A DNA stretch of 64,000 bases, taken from contig JAAYTK010000019.1 in NCBI GenBank assembly GCA_012523775.1, positions 1 to 64,000 of the forward strand. The letters are read 5' to 3'. Source of the DNA: Clostridiales bacterium. Its GTDB lineage: Bacteria; Bacillota; Clostridia; Lachnospirales; Lachnospiraceae. Below, piece by piece: positions 7,249-60,492 of this stretch (positions are counted from its first letter, which is position 1; every line of letters begins with the position of its first letter). The notes under the pieces were generated by a model that saw only the letters and a list, made by a program, of their open reading frames with translations, was not told where the DNA came from and searched no databases. Made by a program: the position numbers and the translations under genes.

Positions 7249-7321
7249 GCTGTTGTAGCTCAGATGGTAGAGCACCTCATTGGTAATGAGGAGGTCAGCG
7301 GTTCAAGTCCGCCCAACAGCT
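7249..7321 (+). tRNA. tRNA-Thr (GGT)
   Basis: Full cloverleaf; GCTGTTG/CAACAGC acceptor; anticodon loop TTGGTAA. Confidence 0.95.
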
Positions 7322-7342
7322 TATCCGGAAAAGCCGGAATAT

Positions 7343-7417
7343 CGAGGTGTGGCTCAGCTTGGCTAGAGCGCTACGTTAGGGACGTAGAGGCCGCAGGTTC
7401 AAATCCTGTCACCTCGA
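7343..7417 (+). tRNA. tRNA-Pro (AGG)
   Basis: CGAGGTG/CACCTCG acceptor, D-stem GCTC/GAGC, anticodon stem CTACG/CGTAG with loop TTAGGGA, T-loop TTCAAAT, A73. Confidence 0.92.
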
Positions 7418-7475
7418 TTTTTTTATTGAAAAATTCATGGCAAGCGAAACTCTTTCTTGTATGGAAATTCAGATA

Positions 7476-7504
7476 TTGACAATAGTTTTTCCATAAGGTA
7501 TACT
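7476..7504 (+). promoter_or_regulatory. sigma-A promoter of the metNIQ leader
   Basis: TTGACA (7476-7481), 17-nt spacer, TATACT (7499-7504). Confidence 0.75.
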
Positions 7505-7575
7505 ACTTCCAACAATCGTATTTGATTAATTGGAATAAACATGAGCCGATAGGGCTTTCGGAAAGGAGTTTATTG

Positions 7576-7674
7576 ATGAGAACATCTGCTTTCATCATGT
7601 GCAATATGACTGACATGCTTGGTATGTGTACTATGTGTAACATGCCTAGTGTTATATTGTGCTCTGATAGATGA
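7576..7674 (+). CDS. Met/Cys-rich leader peptide MRTSAFIMCNMTDMLGMCTMCNMPSVILCSDR
   Basis: 32 codons with 7 Met and 4 Cys; SD GGAAAGGAG just upstream; followed by terminator then metN. Confidence 0.75.
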   Translation: MRTSAFIMCNMTDMLGMCTMCNMPSVILCSDR

Positions 7675-7738
7675 ATGTGGTGTTTTCATGATAAATATAA
7701 ACTCATACTATTTGTCATAATATAGGACTATGAAAACC

Positions 7739-7770
7739 AACAGGAGGCTATCGGCTATCCTGTTTTTTTT
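7739..7770 (+). terminator. leader terminator (putative attenuator) before metN
   Basis: AACAGGA - 12 nt - TCCTGTT followed by TTTTTT. Confidence 0.75.
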
Positions 7771-7816
7771 CGATAATCAATGATTGTTACATAATAAAAG
7801 CTAGCGGAGGTGTGTT

Positions 7817-8824
7817 ATGGCTAATCGGGAGCCTATGATTGAACTAATTGGGCTGGGGAAGACATTTGAGAGTAAGAATAGTTATGTTAAGGCCTTAGAG
7901 GATATTAACCTGACCATTTATGAGGGTGAAATCTTTGGTATTATAGGACTTAGCGGTGCCGGAAAGAGTACCCTGGTCAGATGCATTAATTATTTAGAGA
8001 GGCCAACGACAGGGAAGGTTATATTTGATAAAACTGATTTATCCGAGGTAGGAGATCGGGAATTATTGAAGATAAGACAGTCCATGGGCATGATATTTCA
8101 GCAGTTTAATCTTCTGATGCAGCGTAATACACTACAGAACATATGCTTTCCTTTAGAAATTGCGGGAGTATCTGTAAAGGATGCAAAGAAACGTGCTTAT
8201 GAGCTTTTGGATGTTGTAGGACTAACGGATAAAGCAAAGGCGTATCCTGCACAGCTGTCCGGCGGACAGAAACAGAGAGTCGCCATAGCAAGAGCACTGG
8301 CCACTAAGCCAAAGGTTCTCCTATGCGATGAAGCCACCAGTGCACTGGACCCCACTACCACGAGATCGATTCTTGAACTGTTAAGAGAAATCAACAAAAA
8401 CTTAGGTATTACTATAGTCGTGATTACCCATGAAATGAGTGTTATTGAAGAAATATGTAATAGGGTTGCAATCATTGATGAGAGCCGAATAGCTGAAATA
8501 GGCGATGTGGAGGAAGTCTTTATGCGACCGAAATCAAAGATTGCCAGACAGCTTGTCTTTTCAGGGGCTAATCATATCGACTCCTTTGTAGGTGAGGACA
8601 AATGCCGTATTATATTTGACGGACGAACCTCGTTCGAGCCTGTAATAGCCAATATGGTATTGGAATGCAGAACACCGGTGAATATTCTGTTTGCAGATAC
8701 AAAGGATATAGACGGAAAAGCATTCGGACAGATGGTTATACAGCTTCCTGAGGATGAATCCAGTAAGAAGCGTATATTCGCATATCTCGAGATGCATAAA
8801 ATACCCCATGAGGAGGTGCTATAG
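7817..8824 (+). CDS. metN: methionine ABC transporter ATP-binding protein
   Basis: Walker A GLSGAGKST, LSGGQKQRVAIARAL, C-terminal NIL-like domain; followed by permease and lipoprotein. Confidence 0.93.
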   Translation: MANREPMIELIGLGKTFESKNSYVKALEDINLTIYEGEIFGIIGLSGAGKSTLVRCINYLERPTTGKVIFDKTDLSEVGDRELLKIRQSMGMIFQQFNLLMQRNTLQNICFPLEIAGVSVKDAKKRAYELLDVVGLTDKAKAYPAQLSGGQKQRVAIARALATKPKVLLCDEATSALDPTTTRSILELLREINKNLGITIVVITHEMSVIEEICNRVAIIDESRIAEIGDVEEVFMRPKSKIARQLVFSGANHIDSFVGEDKCRIIFDGRTSFEPVIANMVLECRTPVNILFADTKDIDGKAFGQMVIQLPEDESSKKRIFAYLEMHKIPHEEVL

Positions 8825-8825
8825 C

Positions 8826-9485
8826 ATGTTTAGTCAGGCAATGTTGGAATTAATCGGTATCGGAATTTTGGAGACGCTATATATGACTATATTGTCCTCT
8901 GTATTGGCTTATATACTTGGACTTCCTCTTGGAATACTGTTAGTGATAACTGACAAGGATGGGATAGCTCCCATGGTGACTATAAACCGAATCATAGGAT
9001 TTATAGTTAATATATTTCGTTCTATCCCGTTTGTCATACTATTGGTAGCCTTACTCCCCTTTACAAGGATGGTTGTCGGAACTACACTTGGACCAAACGC
9101 ATTGGTTGTACCATTGGTTATAGGATCGGCACCCTATATTGCAAGGCTTGTGGAATCCTCTTTAAAGGAAGTGGACCATGGAGTAATAGAGGCGGCACAG
9201 TCTATGGGAGCTTCTCCTTCTCAGATTGTGTTTAAGGTACTTATTCCCGAGGCTATGCCATCGCTTATCATGGGAGGAGCCATTGCGGTAATAACCATTC
9301 TTAGTTATTCGGCAATGGGCGGATTTGTCGGAGCAGGAGGTCTGGGGACCTTAGCTATTAACTATGGATATTACCGGTATCAGGTTAATATTATGCTAAT
9401 AACCATAGCCATACTGGTGCTTATCGTACAGGGCTTTCAGGAGCTCGGAGGAAGGCTGATGAGGCGATTCGACAAGAGATTATAA
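8826..9485 (+). CDS. metI: methionine ABC transporter permease
   Basis: MetI family (GLPLGILL, RSIPFVILLVALLPFTR); ATG at 8826 after metN stop. Confidence 0.93.
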   Translation: MFSQAMLELIGIGILETLYMTILSSVLAYILGLPLGILLVITDKDGIAPMVTINRIIGFIVNIFRSIPFVILLVALLPFTRMVVGTTLGPNALVVPLVIGSAPYIARLVESSLKEVDHGVIEAAQSMGASPSQIVFKVLIPEAMPSLIMGGAIAVITILSYSAMGGFVGAGGLGTLAINYGYYRYQVNIMLITIAILVLIVQGFQELGGRLMRRFDKRL

Positions 9486-9523: not shown

Positions 9524-10342
9524 ATGAAAAAAATTATAGTTATCTTAACACTTATAGCACTATTTGTAGGCGTGCTTGGAGGATGCGCCAACAGTAAGGA
9601 TAAGGGGAAGCCGAAAAAGATAGTTGTAGGTGCGAGTATTACACCTCATGCTGAAATCCTTGAAGTAGCTAAGGGTGTATTGGAATCAAAAGGCTTTGAG
9701 CTTGAAATCAAAGAATATAATGATTATGTTCAGCCTAATGTAGCCTTGGATGCAGGGGATCTAGATGCGAATTATTTCCAGCATCAGCCGTATCTGGATC
9801 AATTTAATGCGGATAGGGATATGGATCTTGTGTCTGTGGCAATTATCCATTATGAGCCCTTTGGCGTATATCCTGGTAAGACAAAGAGTATAGAAGAGCT
9901 TAAGGACGGAGCCGAGATATCCATTCCTAATGACGGAACCAATGAGGCAAGAGCGCTTCTTTTATTAGAGGCTCAGGGACTGATTAAGCTTGCCGACGGC
10001 GTAGGTATGGAAGCAACCGTAATCGATATCGTGGAGAATCCCAAAAATCTTGTTATCCATGAAATTGAAGCCGCTCAGCTTGCCCGTTCACTACAGGATG
10101 TGGATTTAGCCGTAATCAACGGTAACTTTGCCATACAGGCAGGACTAAATGTTGCTAAGGATGCCATAGCCGTAGAGGATAAGGATTCGGTAGCGGCAGA
10201 AACCTATGGAAATGTTATCGCGGTAAGAAAAGGCGATGAAAACAGAGAGGAAATTAAAGCTCTTGTAGAAGCCCTAAAGAGTGACGAGGTTAAAGAATTT
10301 ATTGACTCCACATATGAAGGGGCAGTCGTTCCGAAATTTTAA
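9524..10342 (+). CDS. metQ: methionine-binding lipoprotein (MetQ/NlpA)
   Basis: Lipobox GVLGGCA; NlpA motifs (DANYFQHQPYLDQFN, VINGNFA). Confidence 0.93.
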   Translation: MKKIIVILTLIALFVGVLGGCANSKDKGKPKKIVVGASITPHAEILEVAKGVLESKGFELEIKEYNDYVQPNVALDAGDLDANYFQHQPYLDQFNADRDMDLVSVAIIHYEPFGVYPGKTKSIEELKDGAEISIPNDGTNEARALLLLEAQGLIKLADGVGMEATVIDIVENPKNLVIHEIEAAQLARSLQDVDLAVINGNFAIQAGLNVAKDAIAVEDKDSVAAETYGNVIAVRKGDENREEIKALVEALKSDEVKEFIDSTYEGAVVPKF

Positions 10343-16756: not shown

Positions 16757-16789
16757 ATAACAGAAACTAAATACAATACATATTTTATT

Positions 16790-16890
16790 AGCTAGGGGAG
16801 CACATGCTGAGAGGTATGCACTGCATACTGACCCTCATTACTTGATCCGGGTAATACCGGCGTAAGGAAGCAATCTAGTGTCCCCTCCTA
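16790..16890 (+). promoter_or_regulatory. TPP riboswitch (thi-box)
   Basis: GGGGAGC...CTGAGAGG...GACCCT...ACTTGATCCGGGTAATACCGGCGTAAGGAAG...TCCCCT. Confidence 0.96.
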
Positions 16891-16913: not shown

Positions 16914-17582
16914 ATGTTTAAAAAACTATTTGATTTTTTCGTTGTAACTGATATCGAGAACCAAAGCTTTTATCCCACCACTGCGGGAAATATAGCATTA
17001 TTGGTTATCATAGCACTTCTTTTCGTGGCTATACTGGCTATCGGCGGAGGAAAGAAAAAGCTCAGTGCTAAGCAATTGGCCTTTTCGGCTGTTGCTATGA
17101 CACTGGCTGTTATCACATCGATATTTACGGTATATGAGTTGCCCTTTGGCGGTTCTATTACTTTATTCAGAATGTTCTTTATTTGCTTTATCGGGTATCT
17201 ATATGGGACAAAGGTCGGTGTTATAACCGGAGCGGCCTATGGAATATTGGACTTTATACTAAAGCCCTTTGCGATAACCCTTATACAGCCACTTCTTGAT
17301 TATCCCGTTGCATTTGGATGTCTGGGACTGGCAGGATTGTTCTCTAAATCAAAATATGGAATAATTAAGGGCTATCTCTTAGGTGTTACCGGAAGATTTA
17401 TCTGTCATGTATTAACAGGAATAATATATTTCTATGAGTATGCCGATGGGAAAAATGTTGTTATATATTCTCTGACATATAATGCATCCTATATAGTTCC
17501 GGAAGCAATACTTACAATATTAATTCTTCTAATACCTGCGGTAAGACAGTCGCTTGGCGAAATAAAGAAGATGGCACAGTAA
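16914..17582 (+). CDS. thiT: energy-coupled thiamine transporter ThiT
   Basis: ThiT/YuaJ-like 6-TM protein downstream of the TPP riboswitch. Confidence 0.92.
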   Translation: MFKKLFDFFVVTDIENQSFYPTTAGNIALLVIIALLFVAILAIGGGKKKLSAKQLAFSAVAMTLAVITSIFTVYELPFGGSITLFRMFFICFIGYLYGTKVGVITGAAYGILDFILKPFAITLIQPLLDYPVAFGCLGLAGLFSKSKYGIIKGYLLGVTGRFICHVLTGIIYFYEYADGKNVVIYSLTYNASYIVPEAILTILILLIPAVRQSLGEIKKMAQ

Positions 17583-22659: not shown

Positions 22660-22836
22660 AAGAAGTTCCTGAGATGTTCGACACTCCTGTAATTTTGAAC
22701 CTACATGATTAAACAGGGATTCCTACATTTGTAGGTGGATGTCAAGCCGCCGTATGTAGCGGAAGGCAGAAGCTTACATGCGGTTACCCACCTAGCTTTG
22801 CTAGGAGTCAAAATGCAGGAAACGGCATTTCGGGTA
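22660..22836 (+). ncRNA. ssrS: 6S RNA (SsrS)
   Basis: GTTCCTGAGATGTTCG...CTCCTGTAATTTTGAACCTACA...AAGCCGCCGTATGTAGCGGAAGGCAGAAGCTTACATGCGGTT resembles Lachnospiraceae 6S RNA as I recall it; closing stem CCTGAGATG/CATTTCGGG; promoter TTGAAA-17-TATAAT at 22624-22652. Confidence 0.82.
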
Positions 22837-22851
22837 TATACTAAAGATGAG

Positions 22852-57512: not shown

Positions 57513-57540
57513 AGTAGTAATATTTTAAATGATAAATGCG

Positions 57541-57785
57541 TTGACAAAGAGGAGTAGGTAAGCAACACTTAACAGAGAGGATCATCCACCGGCTGAAAGA
57601 TGGTCAATAAGAGGTCTTACCGAAGGTCGCTTTGTAGCAGTATTTCTGAAGCCTTAAAATTGGGGTGTGTAGGAAATACCGGGAGTTCCCGTTATAGACG
57701 AATAAGGTGGCATGGCATCGCTATGTTATGCTACGAATAAAGGTGGTACCACGGTTCTTCGTCCTTTGTGTCGAAGAACTTTTTT
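57541..57785 (+). promoter_or_regulatory. T-box leader, valine specifier GTC (57626-57628)
   Basis: AGAGGAGTAGGTAAGC stem I; CTTACCGAAGGTCGCTTTGT specifier loop; AAAGGTGGTACCACGG T-box; terminator GTTCTTCG...CGAAGAACTTTTTT. Confidence 0.95.
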
Positions 57786-57831
57786 GTTTAGAAATTTATA
57801 TTTCATAATTAAGGTGATAGGAGAGATAGTA

Positions 57832-60492
57832 ATGGAGAAAGAACTTGCAAAGACTTATAATCCCAAGGATATCGAGGAGAAGCTATATCAAAAATGGCTG
57901 GATAAGAAATACTTTCATGCCGAGGTTGATAGGAGTAAAGAGCCCTTTACAATAGTTATTCCACCGCCCAATATTACAGGTCAGCTTCACATGGGTCATG
58001 CATTGGATAATACCATACAGGATATCCTGATACGCTTTAAGAGAATGCAGGGCTACAATACTCTGTGGCAGCCCGGAACTGACCATGCCAGTATTGCGAC
58101 AGAGGTTAAAATTATCGAAAAGCTGAGAGAAGAGGGAAAAGAGAAAGAGGACCTTGGCCGAGAGGGCTTCCTGGAGCGGGCTTGGAAATGGAAGGAAGAA
58201 TACGGCGGGAGAATTATTAATCAGCTGATGAAGCTTGGTTCATCCTGTGATTGGGACAGAGAGAGATTTACAATGGATGAGGGCTGTAATAAAGCCGTAA
58301 ACAAGGTCTTTGTTAAGCTCTATAATGAAGGATATATATATAAAGGGTCCAGAATCATTAACTGGTGCCCGATTTGTCATACCTCAATCTCAGATGCAGA
58401 GGTAGAGTATGAAGAGCGTGAAGGACATTTCTGGCATATTAAATATCCCATAGTGGGGGAAGACGGCTTTGTAGAAATCGCTACCACAAGACCCGAAACG
58501 ATGCTTGGGGACACTGCGGTAGCCGTACATCCTGATGATGAAAGATATAAGCATTTGATCGGTAAGCATGTTATTTTACCGATAATGAATAAGGAGATTC
58601 CCGTAGTAGCAGATACTTATGTGGATATGGAATTCGGAACCGGTGTCGTTAAGATTACCCCTGCCCATGACCCTAATGATTTTGAGGTGGGTAAGCGGCA
58701 TGAGCTTCCGGAAGTCAACGTCATGAATGATGATGCAACCATTAATGAAAACGGCGGTAAATACGCAGGGATGGACCGATATGAGGCAAGAAAGGCTATA
58801 GTTAAGGAGCTTGAAGAGCTGGGACTTTTGGTTAAGGTAGAGAGTCATTCTCATAATGTAGGTACCCATGACCGCTGCAATACTACAGTAGAGCCTATGA
58901 TTAAGCCACAGTGGTTTGTTAAAATGGATGAGCTTATTAAGCCTGCCGTAAAGGCCGTAAAAACCGGTGAAATCGAGATTATTCCTGAGCGGTTCGAGAA
59001 GATGTACTTTAACTGGACCGATAATATTAGAGATTGGTGCATATCCAGACAGCTTTGGTGGGGCCATAGAATTCCGGCATATTACTGTGACAGCTGCGGT
59101 CAAACCATTGTATCCGAGGAAGAACCATCCAGATGTCATATATGTGGCAGTACAAATCTAAGGCAGGACGAAGATACCCTGGACACATGGTTCTCTTCCG
59201 CATTATGGCCATTCTCAACACTTGGTTGGCCTGAAAAAACTGAGGAACTCGATTACTTCTACCCAACCAGTGTGCTGGTTACCGCATACGATATAATATT
59301 CTTCTGGGTTATCCGTATGGTTTTCTCAGGATATGCCCATATGGGCGAGAAGCCGTTTGGCAAAGTATTATTCCATGGGCTTATCAGAGATTCAGAAGGC
59401 CGTAAGATGAGTAAATCTCTTGGTAACGGTGTCGATCCTCTTGATGTGATTGACAGATACGGTGCCGATGCCCTGCGTTTTGCACTGATAACCGGAAATG
59501 CTCCCGGAAATGATATGCGCTTTTACTGGGAAAAGGTTGAGGCCGGCAGAAATTTTGCAAATAAGGTGTGGAACGCTTCCCGCTTTATTATGATGAATCT
59601 GGAGAAGGCCAATTTATCCGAGAATATAGATGAAAGCCTCTTGACACAAGCGGATCGTTGGATATTGTCTAAGTCAAATACCTTGGTAAGGGAGGCTACA
59701 GATAACCTCGAGACCTTCGAATTGGGTATTGCCGCACAGAAGATTTATGATTTTATCTGGGAGGAGTTCTGTGACTGGTATATTGAGATGGTTAAGCCCA
59801 GATTATATAATGATGAGGATAATACCAAGACAGCAGCATTATGGACCCTACAGAAGGTACTTACGAATTCCCTAAAGCTTCTTCATCCGTATATGCCGTT
59901 TGTGACCGAGGAAATTTTCTGCACACTTCAGGAAATGACGGGACTTAAGGAGAAGGATTCAATCATGATATCCATGTGGCCTGAATATAATCCGAAATGG
60001 GAATTTAAAAAGGATTCAGAGAGCATAGAGCTGATTAAGGAAGCGGTTAAGGGCATCCGTAATGTCAGATCTGAGATGAATGTTCCTCCCAGTAGGAAAG
60101 CTTCGGTTATAGTGGTATCAAATAATGAGAGAGTAAGAGAGATATTTACTGAGAGCAAATCATTTTTTGCGACCTTGGGCTTTGCCAGCGAGGTAATAGT
60201 ACAGGAGGATAAGTCAGGAATAAGTGAGGATGCCGTATCTACGGTAATACCCGGTGCACAGATATATATTCCTTTTGCTGACCTTATAGATATTGACAAG
60301 GAAGTTGAACGCCTTAGCAAAGAGAAAGAGAAGCTGGAAGGAGAGCTTAAGCGCGTTAACGGAATGTTGTCGAATCCGAATTTCATCTCAAAGGCTCCTG
60401 CAAGTAAGATAGAAGAGGAAAAGGCTAAGCTTGAAAAGTATACCGACATGATGAATCAGGTTATGCAGAGGTTAGAGAGCTTAAAGAAGTAA
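57832..60492 (+). CDS. valS: valine--tRNA ligase
   Basis: [28 protein letters not shown]-term coiled coil; true start 57832. Confidence 0.97.

Follow-up and report, generated by a model that had tools for sequence, protein, structure and literature searches.

Based on our findings, we propose that the leader of the metNIQ operon in a Herbinix-like Lachnospiraceae genome is very probably a trp-type ribosome-mediated transcription attenuator, which would sense charged elongator tRNA-Met and perhaps also charged tRNA-Cys. The leader lies between a tRNA-Thr/tRNA-Pro pair (7249–7418) and metN (7817) in the window, by which we mean the whole 64,000-nucleotide stretch of DNA analysed. Leader-peptide attenuation had been suggested in the original prediction, and it now finds support in the kept reading frame and Met codons, in a conserved terminator and antiterminator with compensatory changes, and in the co-variation of the two antiterminator arms across leaders of other genera that cannot be aligned.

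Organization of the metNIQ leader

All four segments of a trp-type attenuator can be assigned in the leader of the window. The features are as follows (SD, Shine-Dalgarno; g1 and g2, two Herbinix-type groups of leaders):

7476–7504, + strand: sigma-70-type promoter, TTGACA-17-TATACT; hexamers kept in aligned close relatives
7512–7528, + strand: 5′ element ACAATCRTATYTGATTA, 17 nt, just 3′ of the predicted start site and conserved among close relatives
7560–7568, + strand: SD GGAAAGGAG of the leader ORF, read from the sequence
7576–7674, + strand: leader peptide ORF MRTSAFIMCNMTDMLGMCTMCNMPSVILCSDR; ATG at 7576, TGA at 7672–7674, 32 codons
7591–7608, + strand: segment 1, predicted protector helix 5′ arm, UUCAUC (7591–7596) and GUGCAAUAUG (7599–7608, Met codons 8–11); from the ribosome-free fold and co-variation in g1 and g2
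7653–7675, + strand: predicted protector helix (1:2) 3′ arm, UAUAUUGUGC (7653–7662) and GAUGAA (7670–7675), overlapping the start of the antiterminator arm; from the fold and co-variation
7666–7689, + strand: segment 2, predicted antiterminator 5′ arm GATAGATGAATGTGGTGTTTTCAT, spanning the leader stop codon; from the fold, conservation and co-variation
7730–7752, + strand: segment 3, predicted antiterminator 3′ arm ATGAAAACCAACAGGAGGCTATC, which overlaps both the loop and the 5′ arm of the terminator; from the fold and co-variation
7739–7770, + strand: intrinsic terminator (segments 3:4), AACAGGA...TCCTGTT and a U-run, -11.6 kcal/mol
7817–8824, + strand: metN, methionine ABC transporter ATPase with NIL domain, by profile
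8754–9485, + strand: metI, methionine ABC transporter permease, by profile
9524–10342, + strand: metQ, substrate-binding lipoprotein, by profile

The promoter, the SD, the 32-codon Met/Cys ORF, the terminator and metN all lie exactly where the original prediction had placed them. The promoter hexamers, TTGACA (7476–7481) and TATACT (7499–7504), are separated by a 17-nt spacer and give an 11/12 match, which is among the two best matches in 7 kb. The element ACAATCRTATYTGATTA is an imperfect inverted repeat without a second exact match in the genome, and is possibly an operator or an RNA element. Seven Met codons stand at positions 1, 8, 11, 14, 17, 20 and 23 of the ORF and 4 Cys codons at positions 9, 18, 21 and 29. 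From sequence and predicted folding, the leader combines an SD-preceded short ORF, clustered conserved codons, an intrinsic terminator and a mutually exclusive antiterminator that can be masked at the stop codon. The ORF, its Met codons, the terminator, the antiterminator pairing and the order in which they stand are shown by comparing sequences.

Conservation of the leader ORF in relatives

We collected the DNA upstream of metN orthologs from 34 genomes of the same genus and from 80 loci in the GTDB collection. Within the genus, 23 genomes have both a MetN with 76% identity or more and sequence 5′ of it. All 23 carry a short ORF matching M[RK]TSxxxMCN..MCGMC.M, one of these leaders being cut by a contig end. 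Loss of the frame or of the Met/Cys codons in close relatives had been named beforehand as the refutation test for the attenuator, and no such loss was found: across 11 close relatives none of the seven Met columns varies, unlike the adjoining residues, and the Cys positions are mostly kept. Insertions and deletions inside the Met region of close relatives are multiples of three. Single-nucleotide changes lean synonymous, the synonymous/non-synonymous ratio being 0.30 in g1, 0.92 in g2 and 0.53 in g3, versus 0.14–0.20 expected from the codons. An SD is present in every leader of groups g1 to g4 except L021, whose start is lost at a contig end, and a terminator is present behind every one of them. 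The nucleotides around the stop codon are kept although the position of the stop shifts between relatives.

Antiterminator, terminator and protector helix

The original prediction had pointed to GTTTTCAT at 7682–7689 and the complementary ATGAAAAC at 7730–7737, and both are present as described. The pairing between them exists, but on its own it is compatible with the terminator; it forms the apical part of a longer antiterminator, which is incompatible with the terminator and in the window consists of GATAG (7666–7670) with CTATC (7748–7752), UGU (7676–7678) with ACA (7740–7742), and GUUUUCAU (7682–7689) with AUGAAAAC (7730–7737). All 27 leaders of g1 and g2 have the full GATAG:CTATC helix (143/143 pairs), with changes of U-A to C-G, of A-U to G-U, and a paired insertion that adds one base to each strand. 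With shuffled partners, the helix was complete in 14 of 27 leaders on average and in 21 at most. For these counts the helix strands were registered by hand and pairs were counted explicitly; since the MAFFT alignment misregistered the helix with the paired insertion, we relied on hand registration and a partner-swap test. The apical part also co-changes, UUUUCA:UGAAAA becoming UUAUCA with UGAUUAA, UGAUGAA or UGAUAA. In Hungatella-type leaders, a conserved TGTATGGATTGTGAT is complementary to the GTCGCAAGTCTGTGCA of the terminator, so that a different sequence shows the same architecture.

In the swap test, the duplex energy of each region following the Met cluster with each terminator 5′ arm was calculated for 66 non-redundant leaders and double-centred. 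Native arms were better than expected in 61 of the 66 leaders (z = -10.1, 0/2000 permutations). Kinship can inflate these z-scores, and the fairest subset is that of the 23 leaders of other genera, a few of which (L149, L158, L159, L166 and L185 among them) are Hungatella-type in sequence; here the native arm was better in 23/23 (z = -6.4). In g1 and g2 together it was better in 25/27 (z = -5.6), and in g3, where the sequences are nearly alike, there was no signal (z 0.7). The region before the ORF (z = 0.5) and the region after the terminator (z = 0.2) served as controls; as a further control, the Met-codon region showed a weak native preference for the terminator arm (z = -3.2). Antiterminator energies of single leaders were modestly better than those of shuffles (mean z -1.4). 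The protector helix, in which Met codons 8–11 pair with the region just before the stop, co-varies in g1 and g2 (z -4.9) and in g3 (z -2.4), and is unsupported in the leaders of other genera (z -0.85). The attenuator features that can be tested on sequence therefore appear to be present, save that the protector helix seems to depend on the clade.

The geometry of the leaders is also regular. The Met codons lie 5′ of the antiterminator 5′ arm in nearly every leader, this arm sits mostly on the stop codon or close by, and its 3′ partner overlaps 13–22 nt of the terminator 5′ arm. In part of g2 the ORF runs past the antiterminator arm, so that a ribosome would translate through it. When 7655–7753 of the window were folded, a state with the ribosome upstream and the terminator 3′ arm not yet made, the minimum was the antiterminator; with the sequence masked to the stop codon the terminator formed, and without a ribosome the protector helix and the terminator formed. 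For the full transcript at equilibrium, the terminator was favoured at -26.2 versus -19.6 kcal/mol for the antiterminator. Antitermination would therefore have to be kinetic and be won during transcription, as is usual for leader-peptide attenuators. A long 5′ pairing in the minimum-energy fold, AGCCGATAG:CTATCGGCT, was also considered for the role of antiterminator. It was dropped because it is not conserved, L015, L016 and L019 lacking it, and because the region before the ORF does not co-vary with the terminator arm.

Occurrence across genera and specificity for metN

We surveyed 108 metN upstream regions of Lachnospiraceae, nearly all from different genera, and found unalignable Met/Cys-rich leaders 5′ of metN in about 30 of them. 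Counting the regions with a short ORF that follows an SD and holds 5 or more Met within 14 residues gave 28/108; among dinucleotide shuffles there was 1 in 1080, and on the reverse strands none in 108. At a threshold of at least 6 per 14 residues, Met reaches it in 24 regions and the next residue, Arg, in 4; Met is the sole residue so enriched. Hungatella, Lacrimispora-type clostridia, Muricomes and relatives share the leader MNQxxAMQMNMxMMNxM..MCRMxMC, Agathobaculum has MLSIRMNMCMMCGFARFSAMQR or similar, and other genera have unrelated Met/Cys-rich leaders with terminators, such as MNKKTAIVSVQMNMMGLMCGMAMCGMIFC... (L161), MKTFNHQNTNQNMMMMVGCVNMCMMCMMNM... (L230) and MNTLSHPGFTSMNMMMCCCETMCMCNMC... 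(L223). The Hungatella-type peptide profile gave 11 matches in 11 of 299 family genomes, one in each, all directly 5′ of metN. With the Herbinix-type (A2) profile, the leader of the window is the sole match in its own genome, and among 200 genomes there was no match beyond the genus. A DNA pattern of the MCNM...MCGM core found metN leaders only, in just 5 of 34 genomes; this pattern is too strict.

Two observations on individual leaders may be added. In L211, a Met/Cys-rich leader with a terminator lies unusually far from metN, some 756 to 577 nt ahead of the end of the L211 sequence, and another short gene may intervene. In L066, L070, L072, L084, L086 and L106, which belong to g3 and are Hungatella-type, the -10 region lies inside a conserved inverted repeat, GGCGTAAAATACGCC, 5′ of the leader ORF, and this repeat resembles a repressor operator that would act in addition to the attenuator.

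The original prediction had noted no S-box, SMK-box or T-box in the leader, and Rfam covariance models bear this out: no family reached its gathering score in the window leader, and nothing relevant appeared even at E values up to 10. The genome's single S-box sits 5′ of a gene that we take, from its sequence, to be metK. Known Rfam elements were likewise found neither in 40 mostly leaderless metN upstream regions nor in 19 leader-bearing ones, and no T-box (RF00230) precedes the sampled metN genes of Lachnospiraceae. The window's only T-box, at 57532–57769, lies before a valine--tRNA ligase-like gene (ORF 57712–60492), so the host uses T-boxes elsewhere. The window also holds a TPP riboswitch (16784–16885) before a predicted membrane transport protein (16914–17582), and a 6S RNA gene (22663–22840).

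In other families of the class, Met-rich leaders are found in L272 and L273, and T-boxes directly before metN in L267, L268 and L270. The specifier position of the L268 and L270 T-boxes, read from the alignment, is AUG. The T-box genomes fall in a single family, f9, together with L272 and its Met-rich leader. Since T-box and Met-rich leader both occur at the metN operon, a tRNA-Met sensor appears to have been realised there in two ways.

Discussion

We suggest a likely mechanism for the control of metNIQ, in which we infer that the leader is translated, that the ribosome stalls on it, which signal is sensed and that antitermination takes place in vivo. When Met is plentiful, the ribosome would reach the stop codon at 7672–7674 and cover 7666–7689, the terminator at 7739–7770 would form, and metNIQ would be off. 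Under a shortage of Met (or Cys), the ribosome would stall within codons 8–23, block segment 1 and leave 7666–7689 free; this arm could then pair with 7730–7752 before the terminator 3′ arm exists, RNA polymerase would read through, and metNIQ would be on. If the leader is not translated at all, the protector helix (7591–7608 with 7653–7675) would occupy part of the antiterminator arm and the terminator would form. Of additional note, Met starvation would also be expected to lower initiator fMet-tRNA and hence translation of the leader, which would push the switch towards termination. Mild Met limitation may be the regime in which the switch works.

As for the signal, Met is the best supported. 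It is the most frequent (18–28% of leader residues after the start, with Cys at 9–13%), its columns are invariant, it is the substrate of the transporter, and it matches the Met T-box found as the alternative. Joint sensing of Met and Cys, as judged from the leaders themselves, is plausible: every group of leaders has a marked excess of Cys codons, and they are present in the Streptomyces lividans metL candidate discussed below, so that Cys-tRNA as a second input is a fair hypothesis. A variant of the attenuator, in which cysteine or general sulfur starvation is the main signal and Met is secondary, could draw on this share of Cys and on the polycysteine leaders that act as attenuators in mycobacteria (Canestrari 2020, in the account that PMC13236596 gives of it). 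We consider it unlikely, because Met is the more frequent residue with invariant columns in g1 and g2, Cys gives way to Tyr, Phe, Arg or Leu in several of its columns, metNIQ imports Met, and another Clostridia family has, at the same operon, T-boxes whose specifier is AUG. In a wider reading, dual-input attenuators that stall on Met or Cys codons and integrate the charging of Met-tRNA and Cys-tRNA would have re-evolved repeatedly across the family and would be interchangeable with Met T-boxes at the metN operon in Clostridia; this is possible, if somewhat short of probable.

Explanations outside attenuation would have to account for the same leaders. The terminator could be controlled by a metabolite-binding riboswitch of an undescribed kind (for Met, SAM or similar), with the ORF being incidental. 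The leader does outperform its shuffles in folding (z -4.8), and other Gram-positives usually place Met uptake under S-box control. We nevertheless regard such a riboswitch as very improbable: the leader has no Rfam match, its strong 5′ pairing is not conserved, and the genera share no aptamer-like core, what they have in common being the Met codons in a short ORF, the terminator and an antiterminator near the stop. Another possibility is that the ORF encodes a functional Met/Cys-rich small protein, for metal or redox binding, that stands before metNIQ by chance. Met- and Cys-rich peptides can bind metals, and MCxM motifs recur in the leaders. However, the genera share the composition alone and not the sequence, the leader peptide has no Pfam match, the linkage to metN is strict, and the nucleotides at the stop are kept despite the moved stop position, as would be expected of an RNA element; this explanation seems to us slightly more remote even than the riboswitch.

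The metN leader resembles the trp/his/leu-type attenuators in its short ORF with codons of the regulated amino acid, its exclusive antiterminator and terminator, its stop codon by segment 2 and, as predicted for the Herbinix-type and g3 leaders, a protector helix in the ORF. It differs from them in using Met (and Cys) codons, in its target, which is an uptake operon, and in its host, a member of Lachnospiraceae. In Firmicutes, tRNA is usually sensed by T-boxes. The nearest precedent is the metL leader, MSTTSDRTPATEATTTPGARCMCRRMCAF, predicted before metNIQ in Streptomyces lividans TK24 (PMC8079986). Like the Lachnospiraceae leaders, metL is a Met/Cys-bearing peptide before the same operon, but it comes from one genome of an Actinobacterium, on a leaderless transcript without a typical Rho-independent terminator, and its peptide cannot be aligned with ours by eye. 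In our search of literature available without subscription, this prediction was the sole precedent for a Met leader peptide, and no report of one in Clostridia was found. Naville and Gautheret remarked that, until they described a His leader in bacilli, leader-peptide systems had been demonstrated in Proteobacteria and Actinobacteria only (PMC2965389). That leader, before hisS/hisZ, is also a Gram-positive leader-peptide attenuator, with a T-box as the alternative in the hisS family, and the later Leu-rich attenuator of Staphylococcus aureus ilv-leu is another Gram-positive leader peptide (PMC5794164); both concern other amino acids and operons. The met transporter operon of Lactococcus lactis has a Met T-box (PMC7058034). 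Met T-boxes, there and in L268 and L270, share with the metN leader the operon type, the sensing of tRNA-Met charging and attenuation, and differ in binding tRNA directly, without an ORF, through an AUG specifier and T-box sequence. The mycobacterial polycysteine leaders (Canestrari 2020, cited in PMC13236596) also have codons of a sulfur amino acid in a leader ORF and, as far as the citing account goes, differ in their Cys codons, leaderless ORFs and other target genes.

Our findings raise the question of how an attenuator can sense Met when its own leader needs Met for initiation, and the dozens of natural leader variants are a ready experimental system. Textbooks assign the control of methionine genes in Gram-positive bacteria to repressors or to the S-box, SMK-box or Met T-box. 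Attenuation of Met uptake through a leader peptide, across many Lachnospiraceae genera, would be a further solution beside these, with T-box and leader peptide appearing as alternatives at one operon. As its design recurs across many related genera, the metN leader represents a real branch, probably an undescribed one, of a classic control mechanism.
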